Below the pieces are notes generated by a model. That model saw only the letters and a program-made list of their open reading frames with translations. It was not told the origin of the DNA and did no database searches. 61,584 nucleotides of DNA from a virus. The translations under genes were made by a program, and so were the position numbers. Location: positions 1 through 61,584 of IMG/VR virus record IMGVR_UViG_3300025120_013662; one strand, given 5' to 3'. Below are positions 592 through 61,584 of the stretch, one piece after another (position 1 is the first letter of the stretch; each line of letters starts with the position of its first letter).

Positions 592-602
592 GGAGTAACA
601 AC

Positions 603-6134: not shown

Positions 6135-6154
6135 TAAAAACAGGAGATTCATAA

Positions 6155-7669: not shown

Positions 7670-7670
7670 A

Positions 7671-8288: not shown

Positions 8289-8299
8289 AGGTATAAAAA

Positions 8300-11170: not shown

Positions 11171-11952
11171 AGATAGGTATTATTGGGCTTGGAGTTGTGG
11201 GCAATGCTTGTAAGTTTGGTTTTGAGAAAAACGGACATAACGTAAAAGTTCACGATATAAAATTAAATACTTCTATTTCTGATGTACTAGCTACTGAAAT
11301 TGTTTTTATATGTGTTCCAACACCAGAATCTAGAGATGGAAGCTGTGACACTTCTATAGTTGAGAGCGTAATCTCTGAATTACACAGTGTCAGTTATAAA
11401 GGACACATTGCTATCAAATCAACAGTAGCGCCGGGAACAACAGACAAACTATCAACCCTATTGGGCACACAAGTTAGTTTCGTCCCGGAATTCCTAAGAG
11501 AAAGATGTGCAATTACCGATTTTACAGAACATCACGATGTCTGTATGATTGGAACACACAGTGACGATGCGTATAAGAAGATAAAAGAAGCTCACGGTAG
11601 GCTGCCAGATAAGTTTGTTAGATTAACTCCAGCCGAAGCAGAGTTTTCCAAGTATTTTAATAATGTGTATAATGCTACCCTAGTTGTTTTTGCTAATAGT
11701 TTTTATGAAGCTTGCAAGGCTAGCGGTGTAAATTATGCAAACATAAAAAACGCAGTGGTGCAGAGAAAACACATCTCTGATAATTATCTAGAATGCAATG
11801 ACAATTTCAGAGGATTTGGTGGTATGTGTCTGCCAAAAGATACGGCTGCGCTGGCAAAGATCTGTAAAGACTTGCCAGTTAGATTTTTTGACAGCCTGTT
11901 AGAAGAAAACAGAAAATACAAAACAACAGTTTTTGATGGTATGAGGGAATAA
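11167..11952 (+). CDS. UDP-sugar/GDP-mannose 6-dehydrogenase family, short form
   Basis: 261 aa, ATGA overlap at 11167. The NAD-binding motif GLGVVG is at residues 7-12. FICVPTP, KSTVAPGTTDKL and FVPEFLRE are family signatures. K162 and N166 (SKYFNNVYNA) and the catalytic Cys C221 in GFGGMCLPKDT are all present. Normal enzymes are about 390-440 aa and end in a UDP-sugar-binding Rossmann domain, but this one stops just after the central helix domain. The catalytic residues are intact, so it may be active as a reduced form or oxidise a different sugar. The usual product would be a uronic acid. Confidence 0.82.
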   Translation: MKIGIIGLGVVGNACKFGFEKNGHNVKVHDIKLNTSISDVLATEIVFICVPTPESRDGSCDTSIVESVISELHSVSYKGHIAIKSTVAPGTTDKLSTLLGTQVSFVPEFLRERCAITDFTEHHDVCMIGTHSDDAYKKIKEAHGRLPDKFVRLTPAEAEFSKYFNNVYNATLVVFANSFYEACKASGVNYANIKNAVVQRKHISDNYLECNDNFRGFGGMCLPKDTAALAKICKDLPVRFFDSLLEENRKYKTTVFDGMRE

Positions 11953-11954
11953 TA

Positions 11955-12980
11955 ATGAAGAAAAAGATTTTAATCACAGGAAGTCAGGGATTTATCGGAT
12001 CATATTTGTGTTCTGAGTTACTGGAGAAGGGTTATAGTATTATAGGAATTGATAATTTCTCAAAATATGGCCCGGTCACTAGACCTCACGATAACCATCC
12101 AGATTTTCATTTATTGGAGATGGATGTTCTTGATGTTGACACTAAAAACCCACCATCTGAAATGCTTGATGTCGAGTATATCATCGCCGCTGCTGCTATG
12201 ATTGGCGGTATTAGTTATTTTCATAAGTATGCTTATGATTTATTGGCTACAAACGAAAGAATAATGGCAAATACTTTTGATCTTGCGATCAATCTTAATA
12301 AGAATCATAACCTAAAAAGAATTCTAGTGCTATCAAGTAGTATGGTATATGAGTCCACAGATCTATATCCAACTCCTGAGGAAGAAATTGAAAGATGTCC
12401 ACCTCCATATAGCACTTACGGATTTCAAAAACTGGCAACAGAATATTTTTGTAAAGGTGCTTATGAGCAGTATGGTGTTCCTTATAGTATTATTAGACCT
12501 TTTAATTGTGTAGGCGTTGGAGAAGAAGAGGCTATTGGCGAGGATAAGATTAAAAGCGGAAACATTAATTTAATGCTGAGCCATGTTCTTCCAGATATAA
12601 TTAATAAGATATTAAAGGGTCAAAGTCCATTGCACATTCTTGGCGATGGTAGACAAGTTAGGTGTTACACTAACGGTAAGGACATCGCTAGGGGTATTCG
12701 CCTTTGTTTGGAGAGTCCGGCAGCCGAGAATGAAGATTTCAATATTTCAACCTCTAGGGCAACAACTGTTTTAGAACTGGCAGAAATAGTGTGGAATCTT
12801 GTTAACAAAGAAGAGGAATTTTCATATACTAGTGATGAGCCTTATGAATATGATGTTCAAAAAAGAATTCCCGATGTTTCGAAAGCAAAGAATATTTTGG
12901 GATTTGAGGCGCAAATATCTTTAGAAGATTCGGTTAACGAAGTTTTAGAATATATGGTGAACAAAAATAATGAAGCCTGA
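11955..12980 (+). CDS. NDP-sugar epimerase/dehydratase (extended SDR)
   Basis: 341 aa, ATG 11955, two bases after the dehydrogenase stop. GSQGFIG (residues 9-15) is the NAD motif and GIDNFS ends strand 2 with an Asp. The active site reads SSSMVYES and Y155-x3-K159 in TYGFQKL. RPFNCVGVGE and GDGRQVRCYTNGKDIARG are typical of UDP-sugar 4-epimerase and UDP-glucuronate-decarboxylase-like SDRs. Its position after a UDP-sugar dehydrogenase homologue suggests it works on that product, for example C4 epimerisation of a uronic acid, but this is inferred from order only. Confidence 0.8.
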   Translation: MKKKILITGSQGFIGSYLCSELLEKGYSIIGIDNFSKYGPVTRPHDNHPDFHLLEMDVLDVDTKNPPSEMLDVEYIIAAAAMIGGISYFHKYAYDLLATNERIMANTFDLAINLNKNHNLKRILVLSSSMVYESTDLYPTPEEEIERCPPPYSTYGFQKLATEYFCKGAYEQYGVPYSIIRPFNCVGVGEEEAIGEDKIKSGNINLMLSHVLPDIINKILKGQSPLHILGDGRQVRCYTNGKDIARGIRLCLESPAAENEDFNISTSRATTVLELAEIVWNLVNKEEEFSYTSDEPYEYDVQKRIPDVSKAKNILGFEAQISLEDSVNEVLEYMVNKNNEA

Positions 12981-13764
12981 ATTATCGATAATATTACCCA
13001 GTATCCGAACTGAAAGATTAGAAAGTCTTTACGAATCTATTTTAAAGTCAACTAAAAGAACTTTTGAATTAATTATTTGCGGACCTAATCAGTTACCTGA
13101 ATCTCTAAAAGATCTTAAGAATATTAAATTTGTAAAAGATTACGGATCACCTGTTAGAGCTTCTAATATTGCTGCATCTCTTTGCGAGGGCAAGATATAT
13201 ACTTGGTTCGCAGATGATTGTATATTATTTGAGGATTCATTAGATAAGTGCATTGACCAATTTGAATTATTAGGCAGCGACCCTTCAAATGTGTTGGTGG
13301 CCAAGTATTATGAAGGACAAGAGGGCAGCACTGAAAGAGAAACGCTACAACCTGATGAATATTTTAAAATAAGATCAACTCCTGCGTCTTCTCCATACCT
13401 ACCACAAGATTGGTGGCTATTCAATATAGCATTTCTACATGCTGACTTCTTTAACTCTTTGGGGGGTTGGGATTGTTCTTATGAGGGGACTTGGGCATCA
13501 CATGCAGATATGGCAATACGTGCTCAATTTATGGGTGCAAAAGTAACGATGGCTCAGGTTCCTCTGTTTACTTGTGATCATATGCCCGGAGGCACAGGAG
13601 ATCATATGCCAATATTTATATGCCAACATCAACATGATGAACCATTGTTGCATCAGAGATATAGAGATCCTAATTGGACTTCAAATATTAACTCTCGTTT
13701 AGCAATGGATAATTGGAAAAAAGCCCCCACAGTGTGGGAGAGGAGATTTAAAAATGACAGCTAG
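12970..13764 (+). CDS. GT2-like glycosyltransferase, paralogue 2 of 3
   Basis: 264 aa, ATG 12970, 11-nt overlap. It has the same architecture as the genes at 9784 and 13754: PELSIILPSIRTERLESLY first strand, KDYGSPVRASNIAA, then YTWFADDCILF with an acidic pair in the DxD position, GGWDCSYE in the middle and a C-terminal DNWKKAPTVWERRFKN. It is the most diverged of the three. The presence of several paralogues suggests successive additions in one glycan, or different donors, with a common acceptor-binding C-terminus. Confidence 0.77.
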   Translation: MKPELSIILPSIRTERLESLYESILKSTKRTFELIICGPNQLPESLKDLKNIKFVKDYGSPVRASNIAASLCEGKIYTWFADDCILFEDSLDKCIDQFELLGSDPSNVLVAKYYEGQEGSTERETLQPDEYFKIRSTPASSPYLPQDWWLFNIAFLHADFFNSLGGWDCSYEGTWASHADMAIRAQFMGAKVTMAQVPLFTCDHMPGGTGDHMPIFICQHQHDEPLLHQRYRDPNWTSNINSRLAMDNWKKAPTVWERRFKNDS

Positions 13765-14530
13765 GTATGACGTTTCTATATGTATGCCAGCCCACAGATC
13801 TCAAATGTGGGAATCAATGTATTCTTCCCTTGCCGCCTCAGCCGCTCCATATACTTGGGAATTGGTGATCGTTGGCCCGAACTACCCATCAGCAGAGTTG
13901 ATGAGTAAATCAAATTTTAAATTTTTAAAAGATTTCGGAACTCCAACTCGATGTGCTCAAATGGCAACCCTCTTGGCTGAGGGTGAATTTATGATGTGGG
14001 GTTCAGATGATGGAAGATTTCTACCCGGAGCGATCAAGGAGTGTATCGATCTTCGTAAGACTCTGAAAAAAGAAGACGTTGTTGTTGTAAGATATTCTGA
14101 GGGAGAAAATTATTCTGGAAAGATGCCCCCAGATGATTACTGGAAAGCTTGGACACACCCTGACCAAAGATTGCCCGGTATTCCAGAAGATTCAATGATA
14201 GCACCTGTGGGTATGTATAGTACAGATTTTTTTAGGTACCTTGGTGGTTGGGATTGCAGGTTTGAACATTTAAATATGTGCTGTCACGATCTTGCCTTCC
14301 GAGCGCAGAGAGTGGGCGGAAAAGTATATCTTTCTCCCAGTTTGGTATTAGAGTGTGATTGGAATCCGGGTCAAGGAGACCACATTCCAGTCCAAGAAGC
14401 TTACCACGCAAATGATGCACCGTTGTTTGCTTCAATCTATTCTCAGGATCAGTCAGGTAGGATTCAATTGCCATATGATAACTGGACACTTAGCCCACCA
14501 GTCTGGGAAAGAAGGTTTAGAAATCGATGA
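13754..14530 (+). CDS. GT2-like glycosyltransferase, paralogue 3 of 3
   Basis: 258 aa, ATG 13754, directly after paralogue 2 with an 11-nt overlap. Key segments are YDVSICMPAHRSQMWESMY, KDFGTPTRCAQMA, MMWGSDDGRF as the acidic metal-site segment, GGWDCRFE and the end TLSPPVWERRFRN. It is closer to the gene at 9784 than to its direct neighbour in the PTR and LPGIPE segments (KAWTHPDQRLPGIPE here, TAWAHDELRLPGIPQ there), so the tandem position does not mirror the duplication order. Donor and acceptor unknown. Confidence 0.77.
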   Translation: MTARYDVSICMPAHRSQMWESMYSSLAASAAPYTWELVIVGPNYPSAELMSKSNFKFLKDFGTPTRCAQMATLLAEGEFMMWGSDDGRFLPGAIKECIDLRKTLKKEDVVVVRYSEGENYSGKMPPDDYWKAWTHPDQRLPGIPEDSMIAPVGMYSTDFFRYLGGWDCRFEHLNMCCHDLAFRAQRVGGKVYLSPSLVLECDWNPGQGDHIPVQEAYHANDAPLFASIYSQDQSGRIQLPYDNWTLSPPVWERRFRNR

Positions 14531-15456
14531 CAAAAAGGATATTGGTTACAGGTGGAAGAGGATTAGTCGGATCGGCAATAAGGGATATATCAAGTCTATA
14601 TCCACAATACGATTTTATATTCACACACAGAGAGGAATATGATCTCACAAAAGAATCACACATTGATAAATTGTTTTTAAAGAAAAAGCCAGATTATGTA
14701 ATTCATACCGCTGCCCGAGTTGGCGGTATTGGAAAGAACTTAAACACTCCGGCACAACAATATTTTGACAATATATTAATGAATACATATATGATACACT
14801 ATGCTCATGAGCACAATGTAGAAAAATTGATAGCTTTTTCATCTGTGTGTGCTTTCCCTGCTGACAGTGAGATTTTAAAAGAAGAATCATTACACGACGG
14901 CGCTCCTTTCGAAGCCCACGGATCATATGCCTATTCTAAGAGGATGGTAGATGTTCAAATTGAAGCCTATCGGAAACAATATAACAGACAGTATTGTTCC
15001 GTAATTCCCGGAAACATTTTTGGTGAAAACGATAACTTTAATCTTGAAGATGGACATGTTGTTCCAAGTTTAATCCATAAGGGTTATTTGGCAAAGCAAA
15101 ATAATACGTCTTTAGAGGTTTGGGGTGATGGAACACCAACAAGGGAATTTTTATATGCTCAAGATGTTGCTAGAGCCTGTGTAGAGCTATTTGAAAAAGA
15201 ATCTCTACCACAAAAAATAATTGTTTCTGGAGATCAAGAGATAACAATCAAATCCTTGATAGAGAGAATATCTCAGGTATATGGATTGGACAATATAAAG
15301 TGGTTAACAGATAAGCCAAACGGGCAGATGAAGAGGCCATCTAGTAAAGAAATACTGAAAAAAACACTTCCTAATTTACAATTTACCGATATTGATGTAG
15401 CATTAGAAAACACAATCAGGTGGTTTGAAAAGAATTATCCGGAAGTTAGAAAATGA
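14527..15456 (+). CDS. GDP-L-fucose synthase / GDP-L-colitose synthase-like reductase-epimerase
   Basis: 309 aa, ATGA overlap. Clear Fcl (WcaG) family: GGRGLVGS NAD(P) motif at 9-16, AARVGGIGKNLNTPAQQYFD, SSVCAFP (S105/S106, C108), Y134-x3-K138, GNIFGENDNFNLEDGHVVP with the catalytic His at 177, and GDGTPTREFLYAQD. Fcl and ColC both epimerise at C5 (Fcl also at C3) and reduce C4 of a GDP-4-keto sugar made by Gmd. Because a ColD-like dehydratase gene lies two genes downstream, the ColC reaction (GDP-L-colitose formation) is as likely as L-fucose. Family confidence is high; the choice between products is open. Confidence 0.85.
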   Translation: MTKRILVTGGRGLVGSAIRDISSLYPQYDFIFTHREEYDLTKESHIDKLFLKKKPDYVIHTAARVGGIGKNLNTPAQQYFDNILMNTYMIHYAHEHNVEKLIAFSSVCAFPADSEILKEESLHDGAPFEAHGSYAYSKRMVDVQIEAYRKQYNRQYCSVIPGNIFGENDNFNLEDGHVVPSLIHKGYLAKQNNTSLEVWGDGTPTREFLYAQDVARACVELFEKESLPQKIIVSGDQEITIKSLIERISQVYGLDNIKWLTDKPNGQMKRPSSKEILKKTLPNLQFTDIDVALENTIRWFEKNYPEVRK

Positions 15457-16424
15457 AAAAAGCATTAATCACGGGGATAAATGGACAAGACGGATCTTAT
15501 TTGGCGGAACTTCTTCTGAATAAGGGGTATGAAGTTCACGGAACTTTAAAAAGAAATTCAATACCAGAAAATCAAACAGCCAGAATTGAACACCTTTACC
15601 CTATAATAAAGAATAATCTTTATCATGCTGATATGTGTGATATGTCTTCCCTACTTAATGTCATTCTCAAAGTAAACCCAGATGAAATTTATAATCTAGC
15701 CGCTCAAAGCCACGTAAAAGTTAGTTTTGATCAGCCAATATACACAACTGATACGATTGTAAAGGGAACTCTAAATCTTTTAGAAATAATAAGACTGGTT
15801 AATCAGGACATTAAATTATATCAAGCAAGTAGTTCGGAAATGTTTGGTAATTCTATTGACAGCGATGGATACCAAAGGGAAACTACACCAATGATTCCAG
15901 TAAGTCCATATGCGTGCGCTAAAATGTGTGCATATAATCTTGTTGGTTGCTATAGAAATTCATACGATATTTTTGGTTCAAATGGAATTTTATTTAATCA
16001 TGAATCGCCTCGCAGGGGAACTAGCTTTGTGACCAATAAGGTGGTTATGGGCGCAGTTAAGATCAAAAAAGGATTACAAGACAAATTAACTCTAGGAAAT
16101 CTTGATAGCACAAGAGACTGGGGCCACGCCAAAGACTATGTTAAAATAATGTGGCAACTTTTGCAGCTTGACCACTCTGATGATTACGTCTGCTCCACAG
16201 GAATTTCACATAGCGTTAGAGAATTGTGCGATTATACATTCTCTCAGCTAGGTATGAATTATTTAGATTATGTTGAACAAGACCAAAAGTTTATGAGACC
16301 TTTAGAATTAAATCATTTAAAAGGAAGCACGGGTAAACTAAAAGAAGTTATTGATGTACAATTTGAATATACATTCGAATCTATGTTAGATGAGATGATC
16401 GAATACTGGTCAGATAAACTATAA
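15453..16424 (+). CDS. gmd: GDP-mannose 4,6-dehydratase
   Basis: 323 aa, ATGA overlap with the Fcl-like gene. ALITGINGQDGSYLAELL at the start is the Gmd NADP motif, and TLKRNS is the cofactor phosphate-binding region. The active site reads SSSEMFG (S127/E129) and Y153-x3-K157 in SPYACAKMCAY; FNHESPRRG and LDSTRDWGHAKDYV are GDP-mannose-binding signatures. It converts GDP-D-mannose to GDP-4-keto-6-deoxy-D-mannose. At 323 aa it is somewhat shorter than bacterial Gmd (about 370). No ManB or ManC is encoded here, so GDP-mannose must come from the host or from elsewhere in the phage genome. Confidence 0.92.
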   Translation: MKKALITGINGQDGSYLAELLLNKGYEVHGTLKRNSIPENQTARIEHLYPIIKNNLYHADMCDMSSLLNVILKVNPDEIYNLAAQSHVKVSFDQPIYTTDTIVKGTLNLLEIIRLVNQDIKLYQASSSEMFGNSIDSDGYQRETTPMIPVSPYACAKMCAYNLVGCYRNSYDIFGSNGILFNHESPRRGTSFVTNKVVMGAVKIKKGLQDKLTLGNLDSTRDWGHAKDYVKIMWQLLQLDHSDDYVCSTGISHSVRELCDYTFSQLGMNYLDYVEQDQKFMRPLELNHLKGSTGKLKEVIDVQFEYTFESMLDEMIEYWSDKL

Positions 16425-16439
16425 CCAAACGGAGTAAAC

Positions 16440-17600
16440 GTGAATATTAAGTACCCACTTGCAAAAGAAACTATTAACGAAGAAGACATTGATGCGTTGT
16501 GTCAGTGGTTAAAGGGATATCCTCGCCTTACCAAGGGAGATCTTACTTGGGAAGTAGAAGATGCTTGGGCTAATTTTATTGGAACTAAAAGAGCAGTGTT
16601 CAATAATTCAGGATCATCAGCTAATTTGCTTATGGTATATACCGCAATGATGGCAGGAAGAATTAAGAACAAAAAGATCGCTGTTCCGGCAGTGGGCTGG
16701 GTAACGACGATATCTCCGGCAATTCAACTGGGGCTACAGCCTATTATGGTTGGAACCGATCCAAACACTTATGGAATGGATTTAGACCAACTAGAGAGAA
16801 TTTGTGAAGAGGATAGGCCAGATGCTGTTATCTTTGTGCAGGTTCTTGGTGTACCTCATTACAAAGAAAGACTTTTAAGTCTTAAAGAGAAGTATGGCTT
16901 TTGCCTACTTGAAGATTCTTGCGCTGCTTTAGGCGCAGCATACAAAGACGGAACCAGAGTTGGATCTATTGGTGATATGGCTTCTTTCTCTTTTTACTTT
17001 GGACATCAGCTATCGACAATCGAAGGCGGAATGGTGAACACCGACGACGAAGAACTATATGAAATGTTGTTGATGCTCAGGAGCCACGGATGGGGCAAAG
17101 ATTTAAATGAGGAAGCATACTCTAAACTTATGGACGATCATGATGTTGATGATTTTCATAAGCCATTCACCTTTTTTGTTCCCGGATTTAACCTTAGAGC
17201 AACGGATCTTCAGGCTTTTCTAGGTCTTCGACAAATTAAAAAAGCAGAATGGGTTTCTAAGCGAAGAAATGAAAATCACCTTCACTATGCGAAGAACCTC
17301 GAAGGTCACTTTGAGTTTCAAGACTGGGGGGACACTGTCCCGGTATCAATCTCTTTTGGCGCTCTAGCCACTAGTACGGAACATAGAAAAGAGATTGTAA
17401 ATAGACTAGTTGAGAATGGAATTGAGACAAGAGTCTTTGCTGCTGGCAATTTAGGTCTTCATCCGTTTTGGGTTGAGAGATACGGAGAGTTTCACGATCC
17501 AATGAGCGACAGAATTCACTCAACAGGATTCTTTGTGCCCAATTACCCAGAGATGAGTTTCGAGGACATCGACTTTATCTGTGATGTGATCAAGGGATAA
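16440..17600 (+). CDS. ColD-like PLP-dependent GDP-4-keto-6-deoxymannose 3-dehydratase
   Basis: 386 aa from GTG 16440, preceded by GGAG. It is a DegT/DnrJ/EryC1 fold protein: NNSGSSANLL phosphate loop (near 55-64), EDSCAALGA with the PLP-binding Asp D159, and FYFGHQLSTIEGGM where a sugar aminotransferase would have its PLP Lys. H189 sits in that place, exactly as in ColD (His188), whose length of 388 aa also matches. ColD removes the 3-OH of GDP-4-keto-6-deoxymannose, the product of Gmd encoded just upstream. The alternative, GDP-perosamine synthase, would need Lys here. Fe-S dehydratases (E1/AscC) are longer, with added Cys motifs. Confidence 0.87.
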   Translation: MNIKYPLAKETINEEDIDALCQWLKGYPRLTKGDLTWEVEDAWANFIGTKRAVFNNSGSSANLLMVYTAMMAGRIKNKKIAVPAVGWVTTISPAIQLGLQPIMVGTDPNTYGMDLDQLERICEEDRPDAVIFVQVLGVPHYKERLLSLKEKYGFCLLEDSCAALGAAYKDGTRVGSIGDMASFSFYFGHQLSTIEGGMVNTDDEELYEMLLMLRSHGWGKDLNEEAYSKLMDDHDVDDFHKPFTFFVPGFNLRATDLQAFLGLRQIKKAEWVSKRRNENHLHYAKNLEGHFEFQDWGDTVPVSISFGALATSTEHRKEIVNRLVENGIETRVFAAGNLGLHPFWVERYGEFHDPMSDRIHSTGFFVPNYPEMSFEDIDFICDVIKG

Positions 17601-18346
17601 TGAAGATACTTGTTATTGGGGAGAGTTGCAATGATATTTTTATCTATGGAGCTTGTGACAGATTAGCCCCTGCTGCTCCTGTGCCAGTTTTTCGAAAAGA
17701 GCCGCATCTAAATGATATGAAAATATCAACTGGTGGTATGGCAATGAATGTATATAATAACATATCATCCTTCGGTGACAATGTAGAAATTATTACTAAT
17801 AAAAATTGGGAAGATATTTCAAAAAAAAGATATGTTGACTATAGGACAAATTATATAGTTTTAAGAGTGGATACAGGTGACCACGCATATGGAAGTGTTG
17901 ATCTGGACTCAATTAACTTTGATGATTATGAAGCTGTAATAATATCAGACTATGATAAAGGATATCTTTCTGAAGAAGACATCGAAAAGATCTCTGAAAG
18001 CCACCCACTTACTTTCTTAGATACTAAAAAAATACTAGATGTTTGGGCAGAGAAAATTACATTCATTAAGATAAATAATTTCGAGTTTGATCGCACTAAA
18101 AATGTACTACCTCCTAATTTTGTTAATAAGATGGTGGTAACCCTAGGACCTGACGGTTGTCGGTATTTAGACAGGGTTTTCCCGGTGCCAAAAGTCGATA
18201 TAAGAGATACCTCTGGTGCTGGTGACACTTTCATTGCTGGGCTTGTTTCTTCGTACATAAAACACCGGTCTATTGAAAGAGCAATAGAGTTTGCTAATAC
18301 CTGCGCCACAAGTGTTGTCCAGAAAAAAGGAATTGGAATAGTATGA
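17600..18346 (+). CDS. PfkB-type sugar kinase, HldE kinase-domain-like
   Basis: 248 aa; ATG 17600 shares its A with the previous TAA. ILVIGESCNDIFIYG and RLAPAAPVPVF are the start of the HldE/RfaE domain I (heptose-7-phosphate kinase), followed by STGGMAMNVYNNISSFG for substrate binding. VTLGPDGCRYL and DTSGAGDTFIAG with catalytic base D209 are PfkB signature 2. Domain I of HldE is about 320 aa, so this form is short. It likely phosphorylates D-glycero-D-manno-heptose 7-phosphate (or a related sugar) at C1. The next gene encodes the partner nucleotidyltransferase domain. Confidence 0.83.
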   Translation: MKILVIGESCNDIFIYGACDRLAPAAPVPVFRKEPHLNDMKISTGGMAMNVYNNISSFGDNVEIITNKNWEDISKKRYVDYRTNYIVLRVDTGDHAYGSVDLDSINFDDYEAVIISDYDKGYLSEEDIEKISESHPLTFLDTKKILDVWAEKITFIKINNFEFDRTKNVLPPNFVNKMVVTLGPDGCRYLDRVFPVPKVDIRDTSGAGDTFIAGLVSSYIKHRSIERAIEFANTCATSVVQKKGIGIV

Positions 18347-18735
18347 AAAATATTTGGGTAAACGGATGTTTTGATATACTACACATAGGGCATTTAGAAA
18401 TGTTACAATTTGCTAGATCCCTTGGGGATAATCTTAGAGTAGGTATAGACTCAGATGATAAGGTTAAAATAGACAAAGGATTGAGTAGGCCTTTTAATAC
18501 ACAGCAGAATAGAAAATCTATGTTAGAGGGTTTTTCCTGTGTTGACGAAGTTGTTATTTTCAATACCCCAAAAGAACTAGAGGATATGGTTAAAGAATAT
18601 TCCCCTGAAGCAATGGTGGTAGGATCTGATTGGAGAGAAAAACCGGTTATCGGATCATCACACACTAATGAGGTTGTATATTTTGATCGCATAGGGGATC
18701 ATTCAACTACCGCTATCTTGGAGAGGCAAAAATGA
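18343..18735 (+). CDS. HldE C-terminal-like nucleotidyltransferase
   Basis: 130 aa, ATGA overlap with the kinase gene. VNGCFDILHIGHLEML contains the HxGH nucleotide-binding motif (residues 14-17) of the cytidylyltransferase-like superfamily, followed by VGIDSDDKV, RPFNTQQNRKSMLEG (RfaE domain II signature) and VGSDWREKPVIG. It would transfer AMP (or another NMP) to heptose 1-phosphate to give the activated sugar. In most Gram-negative bacteria the two domains are fused as HldE; in this phage they are two genes with a 4-nt overlap, as in bacteria with separate HldA and HldC. Confidence 0.85.
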   Translation: MKNIWVNGCFDILHIGHLEMLQFARSLGDNLRVGIDSDDKVKIDKGLSRPFNTQQNRKSMLEGFSCVDEVVIFNTPKELEDMVKEYSPEAMVVGSDWREKPVIGSSHTNEVVYFDRIGDHSTTAILERQK

Positions 18736-19055
18736 CGACATATATCTTCGACATTGATGGAACCATATGTAACTCAAGCGGCGGTGATTACTCTACTGCA
18801 ACTCCAAAAGAAAATAGAATTAAAAAAGTAAATCAACTGTACGGCGAGGGACATACAATTATCTTCCTGACGGCTAGAGGAATGGGGCGTTTTAATAATA
18901 ACTCATTACTAGCAAACGAAGAATTTTATGACTTAACTTTGGGACAACTAAATGACTGGGGAGTTAATTATCATAAATTGTTCCTTGGTAAACCTGCCGG
19001 GGATGCTTACATAGATGACAAAGGGATAAATGATTATGACTTCTTCAAAGATTAA
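18732..19055 (+). CDS. Small HAD-family hydrolase
   Basis: 107 aa, ATGA overlap at 18732. TYIFDIDGT gives HAD motif I (D7, D9), FLTARG is motif II-like, and YIDDKGIND near the end is motif IV. There is no cap domain. Such short HAD proteins occur in capsule and LPS clusters. Next to heptose kinase and nucleotidyltransferase genes, the obvious possible role is the phosphatase step (heptose 1,7-bisphosphate 7-phosphatase, GmhB), but GmhB is about 190 aa with zinc-binding Cys that are absent here. The substrate therefore remains open. Confidence 0.72.
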   Translation: MTTYIFDIDGTICNSSGGDYSTATPKENRIKKVNQLYGEGHTIIFLTARGMGRFNNNSLLANEEFYDLTLGQLNDWGVNYHKLFLGKPAGDAYIDDKGINDYDFFKD

Positions 19056-19392
19056 ACACGTACCCAAAGGGTGGGGCTATGAAAAATGGATTGTCAACAA
19101 AGAAGAATATTGTGGAAAACTTCTTTATTTTGAAAAAGGCAAAAGATGCTCTTGGCACTACCATAAAATAAAAGATGAAGTATTTTATTTACAATCTGGC
19201 AAAATGATTGTAAAATTCGGAGAGGACGAGGACATTAATAAAGCGGAAGAGTTAGAACTACTACCCGGAATGAACTTTCACGTCTCACGAGAATTAAAAC
19301 ATCAAATGATAGCAGTAGAAGATTCCGAATTATTTGAGTTTTCTACGGAACATTTTGACTCAGACAGCTATAGAATTAAAAAAGGAGATTAA
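19036..19392 (+). CDS. Cupin-domain protein, mannose-6-P isomerase type II-like fold
   Basis: 118 aa from ATG 19036; an ATG two codons earlier (19030) is equally possible, with AGGG at 19022 giving too short or normal spacing respectively. HVPKGWGYEKWIVN followed by CSWHYHKIKDEVFYLQSGKM provides the cupin metal ligands (H-x-H and Glu), and LPGMNFHVSRELKHQMIA provides the distal His. It resembles the C-terminal cupin of ManC/ManA type II, but lacks the nucleotidyltransferase domain. It could isomerise a sugar phosphate for the nearby heptose or GDP-mannose routes. It overlaps the HAD gene and ends the island. Confidence 0.7.
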   Translation: MTSSKIKHVPKGWGYEKWIVNKEEYCGKLLYFEKGKRCSWHYHKIKDEVFYLQSGKMIVKFGEDEDINKAEELELLPGMNFHVSRELKHQMIAVEDSELFEFSTEHFDSDSYRIKKGD

Positions 19393-56092: not shown

Positions 56093-56533
56093 ATGAAATT
56101 AAGTAAAGATATAATTCGCAATCTTATCAAAGAAGAGATTAGTGAAATGTGCGCTGCGGACCAATACAAGATGGGATCAGACGACAAGCATCAAGATTAT
56201 CATCATCAGGATGATGAAGGTGATATGGCGAAGCGCCAAATGTTCAAGACAGCCGAATATGCTACTGCTATTTTTGATATGATCCAAGACGGTGAACAGT
56301 ATCCAGCTTGGATTCAAAGCAAGATGACGAAGGTAGCAGATTATATCGGAGCAGTCAAGCACTATCTTGAGTATGATCATGTTATGGGAGAAAAGCTTGA
56401 CAAAGACGCCGATGCTGGTGATTATATTAAAGACTTCCGAAAATCTGATGCCCCACAATTCAAGGGCAAGTCAAAAAAGAAAAAGCAACAGATGGCAGTA
56501 GCTGCCTATCTTGATGCGAAAGATAACAAGTAA
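56093..56533 (+). CDS. Tag-A protein, 146 aa, unknown body
   Basis: ATG 56093 lies 15 nt after the RuvC-like stop without a good ribosome site. The N-terminus MKLSKDIIRNLIKEEISEM is tag A, shared in form with genes at 58318, 58842 and 61106. The body has a His/Asp/Gln-rich patch (KHQDYHHQDDEGDMAKRQMF), a helical region (AEYATAIFDMIQDGEQYPAW, then MTKVADYIGAVKHYLEYD) and a Lys-rich end. No enzyme motif. If the tag acts as a capsid-targeting sequence, this would be an internal virion protein. Confidence 0.62.
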   Translation: MKLSKDIIRNLIKEEISEMCAADQYKMGSDDKHQDYHHQDDEGDMAKRQMFKTAEYATAIFDMIQDGEQYPAWIQSKMTKVADYIGAVKHYLEYDHVMGEKLDKDADAGDYIKDFRKSDAPQFKGKSKKKKQQMAVAAYLDAKDNK

Positions 56534-56543
56534 AAATTACTTG
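56527..56543. promoter_or_regulatory. Perfect inverted repeat overlapping stop codon and -35 box
   Basis: CAAGTAA-AAA-TTACTTG, a 7-bp perfect palindrome with a 3-base spacer. It includes the TAA of the upstream gene (56531-56533) and its right arm runs into TTGACC (56541-56546). It could be an operator for the promoter below or a weak hairpin; there is no following T run, so a terminator is unlikely. Confidence 0.5.
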
Positions 56544-56568
56544 ACCTAATCAAAACATATGGTATTAT
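56541..56568 (+). promoter_or_regulatory. Sigma70-like promoter
   Basis: TTGACC at 56541-56546 (5/6 to consensus), a 16-base spacer, and TATTAT at 56563-56568 (5/6). It lies 22 nt upstream of ATG 56591, which has its own GGGAGG site. It would let host RNA polymerase transcribe the nucleotidase, primase and tagged-protein genes early, separately from the late block. It is the only convincing -35/-10 pair I found in a gap. Confidence 0.65.
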
Positions 56569-56590
56569 AGTGTTGAAGGGAGGTGCTCCT

Positions 56591-57196
56591 ATGAGTTACC
56601 AAGTCTTTAGCGATATGGATGGTGTCCTCGTCAATTTCGAGGGTGGCGTTCTAAAATTTATGAACCAACGTTTTCAGGAACTAAAAGATCAACCAGATCA
56701 TCCTGATCACAAACTTGCCCGTTCGGCTGCCAAAGAACTCGGCGGCTGGGACGTCGAGATTAACAAGTGGCACATTGCTCGATCTGATCAAGAAAAAAGC
56801 TTAGCCCGCAACTATCGGGTCCGAGACTTTATGTATCGTCTCGTAGAAGATGATGTAAATCTGTGGGCAAACCTTGAGTGGGAGCGTGGCGGCAAAGAGC
56901 TTTGGAATTATATTAAAGATATTCCCGGTTTGGAGATCTTGTCAGCACCGATGGCCGAAGGTTCCAAGATCGGCAAGCGGATGTGGGTTGAGCGAGAACT
57001 GGGTGTCCCAGTTGAAAAAGTCAATCTAGCTGACAGCAAGAAGTCCTATGGAGTTCACAACGGAAAACAAGGACTTTTGATTGACGACCGTGACAAATAT
57101 GTCAACGAGTTCCGTGACGGCGGCGGCATCGCTATTAAACATAATCCAGATGACGTGGATAATACGATTAGACAACTTAAAGAACTAGGGTTTTGA
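56591..57196 (+). CDS. HAD-family 5'(3')-deoxyribonucleotidase-like protein
   Basis: 201 aa from ATG 56591, seven bases after GGGAGG (56578-56583); a GTG at 56570 overlaps the promoter and is unlikely. FSDMDGVLVNF gives the nucleophile and acid/base Asp (D8, D10). LEILSAPM holds the motif II Ser, and GLLIDDRDKYVNEF the motif IV Asp pair. This is the NT5C-like phage group that dephosphorylates dNMPs or related nucleotides. It is the first gene after the sigma70-like promoter. Codons here are richer in GC than in the virion block. Confidence 0.78.
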   Translation: MSYQVFSDMDGVLVNFEGGVLKFMNQRFQELKDQPDHPDHKLARSAAKELGGWDVEINKWHIARSDQEKSLARNYRVRDFMYRLVEDDVNLWANLEWERGGKELWNYIKDIPGLEILSAPMAEGSKIGKRMWVERELGVPVEKVNLADSKKSYGVHNGKQGLLIDDRDKYVNEFRDGGGIAIKHNPDDVDNTIRQLKELGF

Positions 57197-57360
57197 TAGA
57201 GGACAAATTTGAAATCGGTGAACTTGTTTGGTTTACTTTCGACGGTGCTGTACCACGCTTAGGCGTGGTCAGTGCTATCACGAATTATTATCAGGTTCTA
57301 TTTGGTGACGAAAAATATTGGATTCCTCCTCATCACATCTCTAGGCACGACGGACTGTAA
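57193..57360 (+). CDS. Small protein, 55 aa
   Basis: Starts at TTG 57193, overlapping the previous TGA, with ACTAGGG upstream; stops just before the primase TTG. The peptide begins MIEDKFEIGELVWFTFDG and continues with VVSAITNYYQVLFGDEKYW and PPHHISRHDGL. The beta-rich pattern (VWFTFDG, then QVLFGDEKYWI) resembles a small SH3/KOW-like barrel seen in short phage proteins. Full coding of this interval and coupling on both sides support a real gene. Function unknown. Confidence 0.5.
   Translation: MIEDKFEIGELVWFTFDGAVPRLGVVSAITNYYQVLFGDEKYWIPPHHISRHDGL
57252..57269. other. 7-bp stem-loop inside small gene
   Basis: ACCACGC-TTAG-GCGTGGT is a perfect 7-bp stem with a 4-base loop, within the 55-codon gene upstream of primase. 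It could affect mRNA stability or translation of the primase, but may simply reflect codon choice (encodes part of VPRLGVV). Confidence 0.35.
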
Positions 57361-58308
57361 TTGCTTAACGACCCCAACTCGGCGAAGAAGAAAAGAATCC
57401 TTGATGAAATCCTTGGCACACCTCAGCGCCAAGGCAAGGAATATCTTTACTCTTCCCGGTGTTGCGGACACCACAAGCGCAAACTCTCAGTAAACTTTGA
57501 TAAGAACGTCGGTAAGTGTTGGGCTTGTGACTGGCGCACCAAAAATTTACGACGCATTGTAAGGCGCTGGGGTGATATAAGTCACATCCATAGATGGAAG
57601 GATTTTGACGCCGATATAGAGCTAGGCGACCTAGACAACCTCTTTGCGAAGGAAGAGGAAATAAAACAGCGAATTGACCTTCCAAATGAGTTTCAAACGC
57701 TTACGGGTCGCTCTCACCCACCATCTGCAAGAGTTCCCCTAAACTATCTCCGCAAACGTGCCGTTGTAGAGAAAGACGTCCTCTTTTGGAAGATTGGCTA
57801 CTGCGCTTCTGGGGAATACAAAAATAGAATTATTCTTCCATCATTTGACGACGAAGGTTATTGCAACTTTTTTACGTCCCGCACATATGACCCTAACATC
57901 TGGCCTCCGTATATGAACGGACCCGGCAACAAAGACATTATCTTCAACGAACTTCTGATTGATTGGGAGCGAGAGGTCACTTTGGTTGAGGGTGTCTTCG
58001 ACGCCATCGTTGCTGGCGAGAACAGCATCCCGCTCCTCGGCTCAACCCTCAGAGAAGACAGTAGACTTTTCAGGAAGATCGTAAAGAACGACACACCGGT
58101 CCTACTTGGTTTGGACAACGATGCACACAAAAAAGCTATGAAACTTGTGAAAGCGTTGCTGGCTTATGACGTAGAAGTTCGGCTTATGGACACGTCTGGT
58201 TATAAAGATGTTGGCGTGATGCCTCCTGATATATTCGAGGAACGCAAAGAGAAAGCGCCTTTTATTGATTCCGATGCCTATTTATTCAAGATTGCTTTAA
58301 TGGCATGA
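57361..58308 (+). CDS. DNA primase (zinc ribbon + TOPRIM)
   Basis: 315 aa from TTG 57361, directly after the small gene stop. The N-terminal zinc-binding site is C34/C35-x2-H37/H38 with C53-x2-C56, a CHC2-type ribbon. The TOPRIM core has LVEGVFDAIVAGE (E210, D214) and LLGLDNDAH (D252, D254), giving the Glu and DxD metal site. T4 gp61 is 342 aa with a similar order. It makes RNA primers for lagging-strand replication with a phage helicase, which is not in this window. The TTG start and lack of a clear ribosome site suggest coupling to the small gene. Confidence 0.88.
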   Translation: MLNDPNSAKKKRILDEILGTPQRQGKEYLYSSRCCGHHKRKLSVNFDKNVGKCWACDWRTKNLRRIVRRWGDISHIHRWKDFDADIELGDLDNLFAKEEEIKQRIDLPNEFQTLTGRSHPPSARVPLNYLRKRAVVEKDVLFWKIGYCASGEYKNRIILPSFDDEGYCNFFTSRTYDPNIWPPYMNGPGNKDIIFNELLIDWEREVTLVEGVFDAIVAGENSIPLLGSTLREDSRLFRKIVKNDTPVLLGLDNDAHKKAMKLVKALLAYDVEVRLMDTSGYKDVGVMPPDIFEERKEKAPFIDSDAYLFKIALMA

Positions 58309-58317
58309 GGGCACAAA

Positions 58318-58845
58318 ATGAAAGTAACAATTTCTCAACTTCGGGGTATGGTAGAAGAAGCCTTACTTGACGAGAAGAAGAAAAAGAAGAAGAAGAAAAA
58401 AAAGAAGAAGAAAGGCGGCAAGAAAGACGCCTGCTATCATAAAGTGAAATCACGTTATGACGTATGGCCTTCTGCTTACGCTTCCGGTGCTCTTGTAAAA
58501 TGCCGCAAGGTCGGCGCTGCTAACTGGGGCAACAGCAAAAAAGAAGGCGTTGAGGATGACTACCTCCGCCAACTTGTGGAAGAAGAAATCTCAAAACTTA
58601 AAGAAGCCGACAGCGAAGGACTACGCAAATGGTTCGGTCGCAAGGGTGAAAAAGGAAGTAAGAGTGGCTGGGTAGATTGTAACACCTGTCGTAAAGATAA
58701 AAAGACGGGTAAAAAGAAATGCAGTGCCTGCGGTCGTGAAAGCGGCGAATCACGTTCAAAATATCCGAAGTGCCGACCTACACCCTCAGCGTGTAGCAAG
58801 AGCGGTAACTACGGCAAAAAATCTAAGGCAGGTAAAAAAGGATGA
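58318..58845 (+). CDS. Tag-A protein with poly-lysine tract and Cys-rich domain, 175 aa
   Basis: ATG 58318 has GAGGG upstream. Residues 1-19 form tag A (MKVTISQLRGMVEEALLDE). Residues 20-32 are 13 Lys. Residues 43-72 contain KSRYDVWPSAYASGALVKCR and KVGAANWGN, a motif I recall from many phage proteins. Residues 80-95 hold a second tag-like segment (DDYLRQLVEEEISKLKEA). The end carries CNTCRKDKKTGKKKCSACGR, a two-CxxC zinc-ribbon pattern. A basic, DNA-binding internal virion protein is a fair guess, not proven. Confidence 0.65.
   Translation: MKVTISQLRGMVEEALLDEKKKKKKKKKKKKKGGKKDACYHKVKSRYDVWPSAYASGALVKCRKVGAANWGNSKKEGVEDDYLRQLVEEEISKLKEADSEGLRKWFGRKGEKGSKSGWVDCNTCRKDKKTGKKKCSACGRESGESRSKYPKCRPTPSACSKSGNYGKKSKAGKKG
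58375..58413 (+). repeat. Poly-lysine codon tract (13 Lys)
   Basis: Thirteen consecutive AAA/AAG codons encode residues 20-32 of the tag-A protein. The mixed AAG and AAA use suggests selection for the Lys stretch rather than a single-base slippage run. It may bind DNA or slow translation. Confidence 0.9.
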
Positions 58846-59243
58846 GAATCACGAAATCACAACTACGACAGATTATTAAAGAAGAGGTCTCAAGCGTCCT
58901 CAACGAAGAAGAAGAATATTATCACATTGAAGACGCAACCTATGAAGACGGCACGCTTGCCGAAGACGTAGAGTTTTGGGATGATGTCATAGAAGAGGCA
59001 GAGTACCAAGGACGCAAGGTCACTCTCAATAAGCCCATGCAAGGTGATGTAAAAAAATCTAAAGTTTATGTTAAGAACAAAAAGGGAAATGTAGTCAAAG
59101 TAAACTTTGGTGATCCCAACATGAAGATCAAAAAATCAAACCCTGAAGCTCGTAGCAACTTCCGTGCCCGTCATAACTGTGCGGACAAGATGAAAAAAGG
59201 AGATAAGACAACCGCAGGGTATTGGTCTTGTAAAGCATGGTAA
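58842..59243 (+). CDS. Tag-A protein with C-terminal Cys/Trp domain, 133 aa
   Basis: ATG 58842, ATGA overlap. The N-terminus MRITKSQLRQIIKEEVSSVL is the cleanest tag A. After an acidic helix (VLNEEEEYYHIEDATYEDG), a Lys-rich region leads to KSNPEARSNFRARHNCADKM and a final GYWSCKAW. I recall this last domain as recurrent at the C-terminus of phage and metagenomic proteins of unknown role. The two Cys and paired Trp could bind a metal or stack on nucleic acid. The stop overlaps the next gene (TAATG). Confidence 0.62.
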   Translation: MRITKSQLRQIIKEEVSSVLNEEEEYYHIEDATYEDGTLAEDVEFWDDVIEEAEYQGRKVTLNKPMQGDVKKSKVYVKNKKGNVVKVNFGDPNMKIKKSNPEARSNFRARHNCADKMKKGDKTTAGYWSCKAW

Positions 59244-59707
59244 TGAAAAAATTAATGACAGAGTGGAGAAATTTTCTCCAAGAAGAAATGAAAGTTGTTA
59301 TTGGAGCAGTCAAGGATTATGTTTGTCCCCCTGCAACCCAAGATTTAAAACTCAACACTAAAAACCGTGATGCTGCTATTCACGCAGAGCATATCAAATA
59401 TGGTCCTTTGAACGTTGACGAGCCCGGTGATTACTGGGAAAATATAGCAAAGTATTGGAATACAACTGAGGATGCTGCTAAAAAATCACTATGTTCTAAC
59501 TGTACTGCTTTTGATATTTCCCCTCGAATGAAAGAGTGTATGCCCGGTGTAACCTCTGATGAAGACGGAGAACTTGGCTATTGTTGGATGCACCACTTCA
59601 AATGCCATTCAGCCCGTGCTTGTTACACTTGGGCCAAAGGTGGACCAATTGATGAAGATAGTGTATCTCACGAATGGCAATCCAAGAGCCCATTTTCGGA
59701 AGACTAA
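59243..59707 (+). CDS. Tag-B protein with Cys/His-rich domain, 154 aa
   Basis: ATG 59243 shares its first base with the previous TAA. The N-terminus MKKLMTEWRNFLQEE is tag B, found also at 59709, 60305 and 61396. The body has DAAIHAEHIKYGPLNVDEP, then SLCSNCTAFDIS, CMPG, and GYCWMHHFKCHSARACYTWA: six or more Cys with two His, suited to an Fe-S cluster or zinc site. I recall the domain from other phage proteins without a known function. Confidence 0.62.
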   Translation: MKKLMTEWRNFLQEEMKVVIGAVKDYVCPPATQDLKLNTKNRDAAIHAEHIKYGPLNVDEPGDYWENIAKYWNTTEDAAKKSLCSNCTAFDISPRMKECMPGVTSDEDGELGYCWMHHFKCHSARACYTWAKGGPIDEDSVSHEWQSKSPFSED

Positions 59708-59708
59708 T

Positions 59709-60308
59709 ATGAAAAAGCTAATGACCGAGTGGCGGAACTTTCAAAAAGTTCACAAAGTAAACGAGAAGATTTATAAACAATATGCCTCACGTCTCAGTGA
59801 AGACTCACAGGAGGTTTTCTGGAATTTGTCGGAAGACCAAAAAGTATTTGTTGTTGAAGACTGGATAAGCCAAGGACGCCCAGCCCAGCATCTTACAGAA
59901 GAGAAAATTGCTGACCTTGATGCCGAACAAGCATATAGCACAAAAGTTCGTGGCGTCAATGTTATTATCAATTTAAAAGATACTGACCTTGAGGGAACTC
60001 GGCACAGCAAGGAACGCCAGTTCCGTCACGACGAAAAGATTTCTAATAACGCCATCATCCAAGCAGTTGAAATGGCCATCGGCAAAATCATTCAAGATTA
60101 TGCCAACGGCGAACTTGGAAACGATGAACCCTTTCATATTCGTATGGTGGGCAAAGGCAAGGCTCCAGCCCTCAATGTTATAGCCGTTTTAGATATGCGA
60201 AAAGGTCCGGACACCATAAAAGTAATTACTGTTATGCGTAAGGACGATTTCAAAACAGATACATTTGGCGGCGGTGAACAAAAAACCTACACCGTACAAA
60301 CCCGATGA
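59709..60308 (+). CDS. Tag-B protein with RelE/DUF4258-like C-terminal domain, 199 aa
   Basis: ATG 59709 (the open frame extends upstream but overlaps the previous gene). Tag B is MKKLMTEWRNF. Residues 20-70 are helical (QYASRLSEDSQEVFWNLSED). Residues 94-180 read DLEGTRHSKERQFRHDEKIS, then AVEMAIGKIIQDY, FHIRM, LNVIAVLDM and IKVITVMRKDDF, with the His-x3-Arg-x2-Arg and strand order seen in DUF4258/BrnT-like RNase folds. A toxin-like nuclease delivered with the phage DNA is possible. The fold is inferred from pattern only. Confidence 0.6.
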   Translation: MKKLMTEWRNFQKVHKVNEKIYKQYASRLSEDSQEVFWNLSEDQKVFVVEDWISQGRPAQHLTEEKIADLDAEQAYSTKVRGVNVIINLKDTDLEGTRHSKERQFRHDEKISNNAIIQAVEMAIGKIIQDYANGELGNDEPFHIRMVGKGKAPALNVIAVLDMRKGPDTIKVITVMRKDDFKTDTFGGGEQKTYTVQTR

Positions 60309-61093
60309 AAAAAATAATGGAAAACTGGAGACACTTTAAATCTTCAGAAGAGCCAAGAATAAACAAAGGGGTTGTAAGCTTTTATAAATCACCCCTCCCA
60401 GTCGAGTATATTACAGAAGTTTTGGGAGTTCAAGTACCTCTTAACGAATCTTATACAGAATATTCTCAGACTCTTGTAGAGGAGATAATACAAGAGCAGA
60501 TTTTATTTGAGGGTTTTTTTGACTCTATCAAAGATAAAGCAAAAGAATATGGTCAAGGTCTTATGGATCTATTCACAACTTTAAGAAAAATTGTTGGCAA
60601 TAATTATCTTATTACGAAATTTGTTAGACAATTGAAAATGTATGTTGACAACATAAAACAGAACTTTAGCAACTTCATCCAAAAAGCTTTAGACGAAGTT
60701 CCAAGCTTAGGAACAATGATGACAAAGATAAAAAACGCAATACAAAAAGCATTCTCGATTGTCAATAATGCACGAGGCTGGAAGGGTGCCTTGGCATTGT
60801 CAGGTCTAATAGTAATCTTTACTTATATTCAAGATAAGTTTGGCGATGTTATAAAAAATCTAACAAATGTTGAAGAGAACGCTAAACTTTTATATCAATT
60901 TGTAATTGAAAAATTCAATTTAGAATCTGTTTCTAAAAAAATACTGGGCACGATGACTGATATAAAATCTTATCTTGGTATTCTGGGTCCCATAGTAGGT
61001 GGAGTTAAATTTGTCGCTGATGCTTTGGGATCGATTACTAGACCGTTTGTTGAAAAATATGTAGAAGAAGAGCCCATCGATCTTAACACTTAG
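60305..61093 (+). CDS. Tag-B protein with two hydrophobic segments, 262 aa
   Basis: ATGA overlap at 60305. Tag B variant MKKIMENWRHF. Residues 65-150 are amphipathic helix (FFDSIKDKAKEYGQGLMDLF and similar). Residues 159-175 (WKGALALSGLIVIFTYI) and 222-241 (SYLGILGPIVGGVKFVADAL) are hydrophobic, enough for membrane insertion. A protein that is carried in the virion and inserts in the membrane on entry would fit, but other roles (holin-like, internal scaffold) are possible. Confidence 0.58.
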   Translation: MKKIMENWRHFKSSEEPRINKGVVSFYKSPLPVEYITEVLGVQVPLNESYTEYSQTLVEEIIQEQILFEGFFDSIKDKAKEYGQGLMDLFTTLRKIVGNNYLITKFVRQLKMYVDNIKQNFSNFIQKALDEVPSLGTMMTKIKNAIQKAFSIVNNARGWKGALALSGLIVIFTYIQDKFGDVIKNLTNVEENAKLLYQFVIEKFNLESVSKKILGTMTDIKSYLGILGPIVGGVKFVADALGSITRPFVEKYVEEEPIDLNT

Positions 61094-61105
61094 GAGAAGA
61101 ATAAA

Positions 61106-61399
61106 ATGAAAATTACAAAAGAATATTTGAGAGGTTTGATAAACGAAGAGGTAGAAACTCAACAGCAGCAGGCTAATAAACCCAAACCCGCCGCTCAACA
61201 AGCGGATGTTGAAAAAGTAAAAACTCGACTTGGTGCCGTATCTGGTCTTGAAGATCTATTGGATAAAGTAAATAGCCGAGTAGAGTTTGAGGAATTCCTC
61301 AGAGAGGTTATTAAGCTTGGAACTAAAAATGTTAAATCTCAAGATATTTTGACATCACTCAGGAATGTTTTTGCTGCTCTAAGTAAAGAACTTAAATGA
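61106..61399 (+). CDS. Tag-A protein, 97 aa, helical body
   Basis: ATG 61106 with AGGAG at 61093. Tag A is MKITKEYLRGLINEEVETQ. A Gln/Pro/Ala-rich linker (QQQQANKPKPAAQQADVEK) leads to an alpha-helical domain of about 60 residues (LGAVSGLEDLLDKVNSRVEF and LREVIKLGTKNVKSQDILTS). No known motif. Its stop overlaps the next tag-B gene. Confidence 0.6.
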   Translation: MKITKEYLRGLINEEVETQQQQANKPKPAAQQADVEKVKTRLGAVSGLEDLLDKVNSRVEFEEFLREVIKLGTKNVKSQDILTSLRNVFAALSKELK

Positions 61400-61584
61400 A
61401 AAAGTTGATGACCGAGTGGCGCAACTTTCTCCACGAGGGGAAATACGAAGCAGCCACAACAGAATTGACCCGCAAGGTAATACCTCACGTCAAATATATT
61501 ATTGACGAGGTTATTCCTAGCGATAATGTCCAGAACTCACGCAAGGACTTGATTCTCGTAATCGGCAAGAAATATGAAACAGGT
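61396..61584 (+). CDS. Tag-B protein, 3'-truncated by window edge
   Basis: ATG 61396 in an ATGA overlap; open to the last base (63 codons). Tag B is MKKLMTEWRNFLHEG. The visible body (TELTRKVIPHVKYIIDEVIP, then SRKDLILVIGKKYE) has alternating strands and helix but no motif yet. It shows that the tagged series continues beyond the window. Confidence 0.65.
   Translation, partial: MKKLMTEWRNFLHEGKYEAATTELTRKVIPHVKYIIDEVIPSDNVQNSRKDLILVIGKKYETG

Follow-up and report, generated by a model that had tools for sequence, protein, structure and literature searches.

Why should neighbouring genes of one marine phage, whose products are otherwise unrelated, begin with the same few residues? The question is raised by the last 2.4 kb of a 61,584-nt stretch of IMG/VR virus record IMGVR_UViG_3300025120_013662 (hereafter the window, to which all window coordinates refer), where an initial annotation had noticed a shared N-terminus, here called Tag B, at the genes starting at 59243, 59709, 60305 and 61396, and had regarded it as a second, distinct class of N-terminal tag; the other class is here called Tag A. 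The leader MKKLMTEWRNF is indeed identical over 11 residues in 59243, 59709 and 61396, whereas 60305 carries a diverged copy, MKKIMENWRHF, sharing 7 of the 11. Translation of 59243 starts two codons inside the longest open reading frame (ORF, 59237), that of 59709 within a longer open frame beginning at 59559, and gene 61396 runs off the window end. By analogy with the capsid-targeting sequence (CTS) of phage T4, we consider it very probable that Tag B is a capsid-targeting leader, exchangeable and cleavable, of proteins delivered from the virion.

A leader of 14 residues conserved as a peptide

Relatives of the window were collected through the 59243 body (589 of 599 matched stretches were confirmed among the matches listed, one of the six search peptides being the tag itself); the best 80 were kept, and eight long relatives of 157-193 kb were analysed whole. 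The window and its relatives (81 sources, 2.32 Mb) were scanned in all frames with a Tag B profile built from residues 2-11, at a working threshold of 18, and ORFs shorter than 45 residues were excluded from the tag counts. Scores of 12-18 also include matches away from a start, which were taken as chance (26 non-start matches for Tag B and 53 for Tag A at a score of at least 12, near-start ones included). The initial annotation had held that internal positions would speak against a tag; at a score of at least 18 none of the 184 Tag B copies is internal, 180 lying at a start codon and four at most eight residues from a Met. The same threshold gave 104 Tag A matches, 90 at a start codon, 10 near a Met, two internal and two in short ORFs. 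At least 60 open codons precede six of the 284 kept tags, namely four Tag A copies (two mid-gene in G001, one in G005, one in L007) and two Tag B copies (L007 and L067), some of which may belong to fused proteins. Tag A copies were seen inside longer open frames at G001 95026, G001 188342 and L007 14522, and may represent fusions of tagged proteins, which the protease would cut apart. Further loci were gathered with a tag pattern (among the matches listed) and left out of the claim of N-terminal position because this pattern is ATG-anchored. Searching bacterial genomes for the tag core gave 19 stretches from unrelated organisms, taken as chance.

The N-terminal position was also found by a pattern-free comparison of start 14-mers within each of nine records, which gave 4-65 similar pairs against 0-1 for equally many internal-Met 14-mers. 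For the window alone, compared without gene 59243 (an overlapping ORF dropped by ORF selection), there were 10 similar start pairs against one internal-Met pair. Some similar start pairs are ordinary paralogues; the largest non-paralogous start clusters in most of the nine records are Tag A and Tag B. Applied to T4, the same procedure finds, in addition to homing-endonuclease paralogues, the CTS proteins IPII and IPIII together with 61.1.

The conserved unit is not the 11 residues first described but 14, with the consensus MK[KL]LLxEWR+[FY][LI]xE; information content is 2.8 bits at E14, 0.8 at residue 15 and 0.1-0.35 beyond. Tag B is a short leader at the extreme N-terminus, in the range of 10-20 residues that characterizes T4-type CTSs. 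Of 127 non-redundant Tag B copies, 103 have the motif [LIVMF]xE exactly at residues 12-14, outside the selecting profile, against a background of 2.6% (151/5705), the profile seeds being start 14-mers whose clustering had used residues 12-14; the strict form [LI]xE is present in 93 of the 127. Tag A has [LIVMF]xE at these positions in 77 of 85 non-redundant copies (background 2.4%), and the counts in a larger set, gathered partly by a tag pattern that left out residues 12-14, are 329/403 for Tag B and 146/157 for Tag A. Residue 8 is aromatic in 127/127 and residue 11 in 121/127 Tag B copies, both positions lying within the selecting profile. According to passages in PMC9026906, the T4 prohead protease gp21 cleaves after L/I-x-E, and in the CTS of IPIII residues 4 and 7 serve chiefly targeting and residues 8 and 10 processing. 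Tag B W8, F/Y11, L/I12 and E14 have the same spacing as these four residues. The leader ends in a motif of the prohead-protease type, and W8 and F/Y11, as putative targeting residues, stand six and three positions before the glutamate of the predicted cut. The Tag A equivalents of the spaced positions are L8, I11, I12 and E14.

Selection on the peptide, proposed earlier from synonymous codon changes, was supported. Genes 59243 and 61396 encode the same residues 1-11 with five synonymous codon changes between them. At degenerate sites where the residue is kept, 285 of 654 Tag B comparisons show different codons, a fraction of 0.44 where independent choice would give 0.59. The 40 nt upstream of Tag B share 31% identity, against 28% when shuffled, with a bias that is only ribosome-site-like. 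Tag B is conserved at the peptide and not at the DNA level.

Exchange of leaders and the bodies behind them

Tag A (of the type MKITKSQLRQIIKE) is a class distinct from Tag B, as had been proposed, and is found on window genes 56093, 58318, 58842 and 61106. The body of 58842 recurs behind Tag B at L004:7630 (98% identity over 108 residues, with L-N-E at both joins), and Tag A and Tag B are likewise swapped on related bodies between G011 and L017 on one side and G008 on the other (51% and 46% identity) and between L013 and L076 (40%). At L008, Tag B (ending YIKE) is fused directly to the EK[IM]ADLDAEQ half of the 59709 body, which in the window follows LTE. Since homologous bodies bear different leaders and Tag B is joined to half of a body in L008, leaders behave as exchangeable modules. 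The 59243 body was found in 71 copies in the loci, 46 with Tag B and two, at L062 and L081, with a third leader of the MENFDLKKFITEG type (Tag C), three rows having been reassigned by eye.

The bodies behind Tag B fall into 154 BLAST families across the sample, with 2-9 Tag B carriers per whole record; being single-linkage clusters, these families may count remote kin separately. Pfam searches with 72 representatives (70 Tag B-only families and two added by hand, an 80-member chained family being set aside) gave 20 families, each in one or two proteins and several below the curated cut-off, among them ART-PolyVal, Nudix, GNAT, zeta toxin/AAA, protein kinase, ParB-like, SAM lyase and RNA-repair-linked domains. 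Packaging in phage heads has been argued for ART, Nudix and 2H proteins (a passage in PMC9503650), and the T4 proteins Ip1-3 are described as having only the leader in common and as blocking different type IV restriction enzymes (a passage in PMC12373910).

In the window, the four bodies proved unrelated, as had been stated, and the individual assignments fared unequally. The Cys-rich character of 59243 was correctly recognized: this body has no match in Pfam, and seven relatives in the phage collection (35-42% identity) are annotated as high potential iron-sulfur protein (HiPIP). A RelE-like nature of 59709 received no support from Pfam or PHROGs, the phage collection giving one weak match, and the tape-measure-like PHROG matches of the supposedly membrane-active 60305 are weak. 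The full-length relative of 61396 in L107 had no relatives in the phage collection, and the typed tag peptide used as a query there gave no match.

Table 1. Leaders and bodies of the tagged genes in the window.
Feature	Coordinates	Strand	Remarks
Tag B leader MKKLMTEWRNFLQE	59243..59284	+	predicted cut after E14 (FLQE|E)
Cargo 1 body, Cys-rich (HiPIP-like)	59285..59707	+	66-95% identical in 46 aligned relatives; leader varies between phages
Tag B leader MKKLMTEWRNFQKV	59709..59750	+	W8 and F11 retained; no LxE at 12-14; next V-N-E at 17-19
Cargo 2 body	59751..60308	+	Pfam: no match above chance level
Diverged Tag B leader MKKIMENWRHFKSS	60305..60346	+	LxE absent from 12-14; [LIV]xE first at residue 36
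Cargo 3 body	60347..61093	+	weak tape-measure-like PHROG matches
Tag B leader MKKLMTEWRNFLHE	61396..61437	+	predicted cut after E14 (FLHE|G)
Cargo 4 body	61438..61584	+	incomplete at window end; full-length relative L107:2439-3266 has HEIQH
Tag A-like leader MKLSKDIIRNLIKE	56093..56134	+	
Tag A-like leader MKVTISQLRGMVEE	58318..58359	+	on Lys-rich protein
Tag A leader MRITKSQLRQIIKE	58842..58883	+	neighbouring gene; its body bears Tag B in L004
Tag A leader MKITKEYLRGLINE	61106..61147	+	

Several observations concern leaders and genes around those of Tag B. Tag A (MKITKSQLRQIIKEE), the partner leader class, was seen at 56093-61147 and in L098-L172, part of its copies having a second L-x-E at about residues 20-22, and the protein at 58318-58845, which matches PHROG families of unknown function, has 13 consecutive Lys behind its Tag A-like leader. 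A fourth short leader, M[IK][IKV][KR][IV]..K, sometimes ending in LKE or IKE, was recognized by eye on the 59243-type body (N-termini in L051, L054, L061, L067, L072 and L073; G007 10691 and 17455). Outside this family, the uncultured phage LR756508 (484 kb) has 17 Tag A profile matches in 135-234 kb and none in two 50-kb control stretches; the tag-bearing region holds a capsid gene (by tblastn) and, by eye, protease and scaffold genes. Also by eye, a run of ART-like proteins with a YRGT motif lies 3' of this capsid gene (177.7-183.6 kb, L183) and carries a start, M[KR]xK..LLKE, similar to the fourth leader. In Flavobacterium phage immuto (NC_055915, L173-L176) a third leader, beginning MENFDLKKFLVENKLT, stands on different proteins at 1803, 103806, 117631 and 118632, and several of these genes are near terminase, protease and capsid genes. 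The Actinomycetia phage DSL-LC01 has a 59243-type HiPIP-like body (L178 19656-20390) adjoining genes annotated as capsid maturation protease. Far from the tagged genes, structural genes of the window are accompanied at 582-19392 by an extended series of genes recognized by eye as glycosyltransferase, sugar-nucleotide epimerase, radical-SAM, aminotransferase-like and kinase-like.

Upstream of genes, CTATTTA is the top-ranked enriched 7-mer in the eight relatives and the window (for example before 52099). Sites of the ACTATTTA/CTATTTAT type are strongly one-directional (189 forward, 21 reverse) and precede scaffold, sheath and some tagged genes; CTATTTA-type sites are a candidate late promoter. 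The late-promoter-like motif is modestly enriched before tagged operons (14/41 against 68/420, Fisher p=0.009).

Head machinery and a proposed role of the leader

Co-occurrence of the tag with head genes was scored in the records of relatives, the window's own genome being covered by the 61.6-kb fragment only. Of 11 records picked via the 59243 body, 10 have Peptidase_S77 and 10 have Gp23; of 13 picked by the tag pattern, 9 have Peptidase_S77 and 8 have Gp23. Where Tag B was seen, the counts are 18 of 23 for Peptidase_S77 and 17 of 23 for Gp23; a 24th record, G010, has both with only Tag C in the stretch examined and was left out of the Tag B count. All misses are records below 150 kb, and the S77 (gp21-type) protease and the gp23-type capsid protein are both present in all 15 searched Tag B records of at least 150 kb. 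These 15 records each encode the two head proteins associated with the T4 CTS.

In 8/8 relatives LL[KR]E stands at residue 58-59 of the capsid protein, close to the position of FLTE in T4 gp23 (65). A pattern search of the eight genomes yielded seven scaffolds and five small core-like proteins, over which [LI]xE sums to 110 against 63.7 expected (the scaffolds not each being significant alone) and to 27 against 8.8, respectively. T4 gp22 is rich in [LI]xE too (16 against 5.9) and gp68 is likewise enriched, whereas gp67, unlike the core-like proteins of the relatives, is not (3 against 2.5). Because of the capsid LL[KR]E and these [LI]xE-rich scaffold and core-like proteins, we infer that [LI]xE is the motif of the S77 protease. 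As a separate observation, scaffold C-termini read [RK][MW]xxLAG[IL] in 8/8 relatives, and the immuto proteins 25061 and 111675 have RMQ[KF]LAGI near the N-terminus, perhaps imitating the scaffold.

A link of the tag to prohead and virion is supported indirectly by the protease-type site, the co-occurrence with gp21/gp23-type genes, the swapping of tags and the type of cargo. Acting as a capsid-targeting leader, the 14-residue, probably helical N-terminus would attach to part of the prohead core while the head assembles and draw into the head any protein fused behind it. Cleavage by the S77 prohead protease at residue 14, behind [LI]-x-E, would release the body, which would be packaged along with the DNA and carried into the host when the phage infects. 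It is an evenly balanced proposition that A, B, probably C and D form a small set of interchangeable leaders, a general loading code of large marine T4-type phages for well over 100 families of virion-delivered effectors. The leader classes may bind different parts of the core and so set order or dose.

A number of results weigh against a cleavable targeting leader. [LIVMF]xE is absent from residues 12-14 in 24 of the 127 Tag B copies; nine of these have the motif one residue later, at 13-15 (FVLTE, YLLSE, FMLQE and others), four lack it anywhere in 12-60 and four more have it only at residue 36 or beyond. Two of the four window copies, 59709 and 60305, are among these 24 and are without [LI]xE at 12-14. 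Neither Tag B nor Tag C is present on 23 of the 71 copies of the 59243 body, many of these 23 having a short MIKIRI-type start. In the eight relatives the protease and the scoring tagged genes are 9 to 93 kb apart, the exceptions being one Tag B gene adjoining the protease in G008 and, in G005, two Tag A-like neighbours of lower score. The prohead protease itself had by eye seemed to bear Tag B; this was rejected, its own N-terminus ranking only 9-91 of 168-248 by profile. A small core protein had likewise been a candidate for Tag A, and the resemblance is weak, with ranks of 8-43 in the five genomes that matched its pattern. The T4 control recovered IPI only with a 10-residue comparison and Alt only with its own duplicate, and the Tag A and Tag B profiles gave no matches in T4 or immuto. 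AlphaFold models of 59243 and of the 61396 relative were too poor for use (mean predicted local distance difference test scores of 52 and 38), and no virion proteomics of the cultured relative immuto was found in the open-access literature.

Could the leader instead be an assembly peptide that stays uncut and attaches proteins to the head, at core or shell, the bodies being structural or scaffolding helpers rather than injected effectors? The Tag B gene directly 3' of the protease in G008 would fit, as would the lack of a known enzymatic domain in most bodies (the 20 Pfam families being confined to one or two of the 72 representatives each), but the conserved unit ends at LxE, the motif is retained through one-residue shifts, and ART, Nudix, kinase and zeta-like enzymes would be odd structural parts; we regard this explanation as improbable. 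A still smaller probability attaches to a role within the infected cell as an amphipathic signal for membrane binding or export: Lys/Arg together with Trp and aliphatic residues could bind a membrane, but such a role leaves E14 and LxE, the interchange with Tag A and the co-occurrence with S77 and gp23 unexplained.

Least probable of all, though close to the membrane signal, is that the shared 5' end is a control element in DNA or RNA, such as a translation start region or a recombination site, with the peptide likeness as a by-product. Tagged genes often overlap their predecessors at ATGA (in the window, 60305 and 61396), the clusters shuffle bodies, and codons differ somewhat less than under independent choice. 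Against this stand the codon differences themselves, the near-chance identity upstream and a unit that ends in a peptide motif.

If Tag B is a loading signal, the injected proteins of uncultured marine phages, which outside model phages are usually unknown, could be listed from the leader sequence alone, and bodies of unknown function would become candidate anti-defence or takeover proteins. The leader would also be a candidate tool to load foreign proteins into heads. Two leader classes on one body constitute a natural experiment on recognition by the prohead core.

Tag B and known head-loading systems

No description of these tags was found in the open-access literature, searched also for the tag sequences and for capsid targeting in marine phages, cyanophages and metagenomes. 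What is new is the scale, with 154 Tag B body families in the sample, and the existence of several interchangeable leader classes.

Among N-terminal signals, that of P1 DarB directs an anti-restriction protein, and also a reporter, into the head, the first 30 residues being sufficient (a passage in PMC9024508); likened by description only, it is N-terminal as Tag B is, and in that account it is described for one protein. In phiKZ and SPN3US, the prohead protease cuts head-internal proteins after x-x-E (passages in PMC5694885 and PMC9026906); again by the published description only, these propeptides differ from Tag B in their S/A-x-E or A-x-E motif and in length, many exceeding 100 residues. 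Polyvalent proteins, thought to enter the host with the genome (PMC5512222 and PMC9503650), overlap with Tag B cargo in domain classes, but are described there as large multidomain chains, whereas Tag B cargo consists mostly of small bodies behind a leader.

The closest counterpart is the T4 CTS of IPI, IPII, IPIII and Alt, which, like Tag B, is a short N-terminal leader on unrelated bodies in a genome with a gp21-type protease. The leaders of IPII and IPIII end in L/I-x-E, the spacing of an aromatic, a second aromatic, L/I and E is equal in the T4 CTS and Tag B, and ART occurs among Tag B cargo as in Alt. Tag B differs in having 14 residues instead of 10 and a near-invariant W, and it shows no recognizable sequence similarity to the T4 CTS; because the Tag A and Tag B profiles miss the T4 sequence, we do not claim common descent. 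Unlike T4, the tagged phages possess at least two interchangeable leader classes, set before the many body families counted here.

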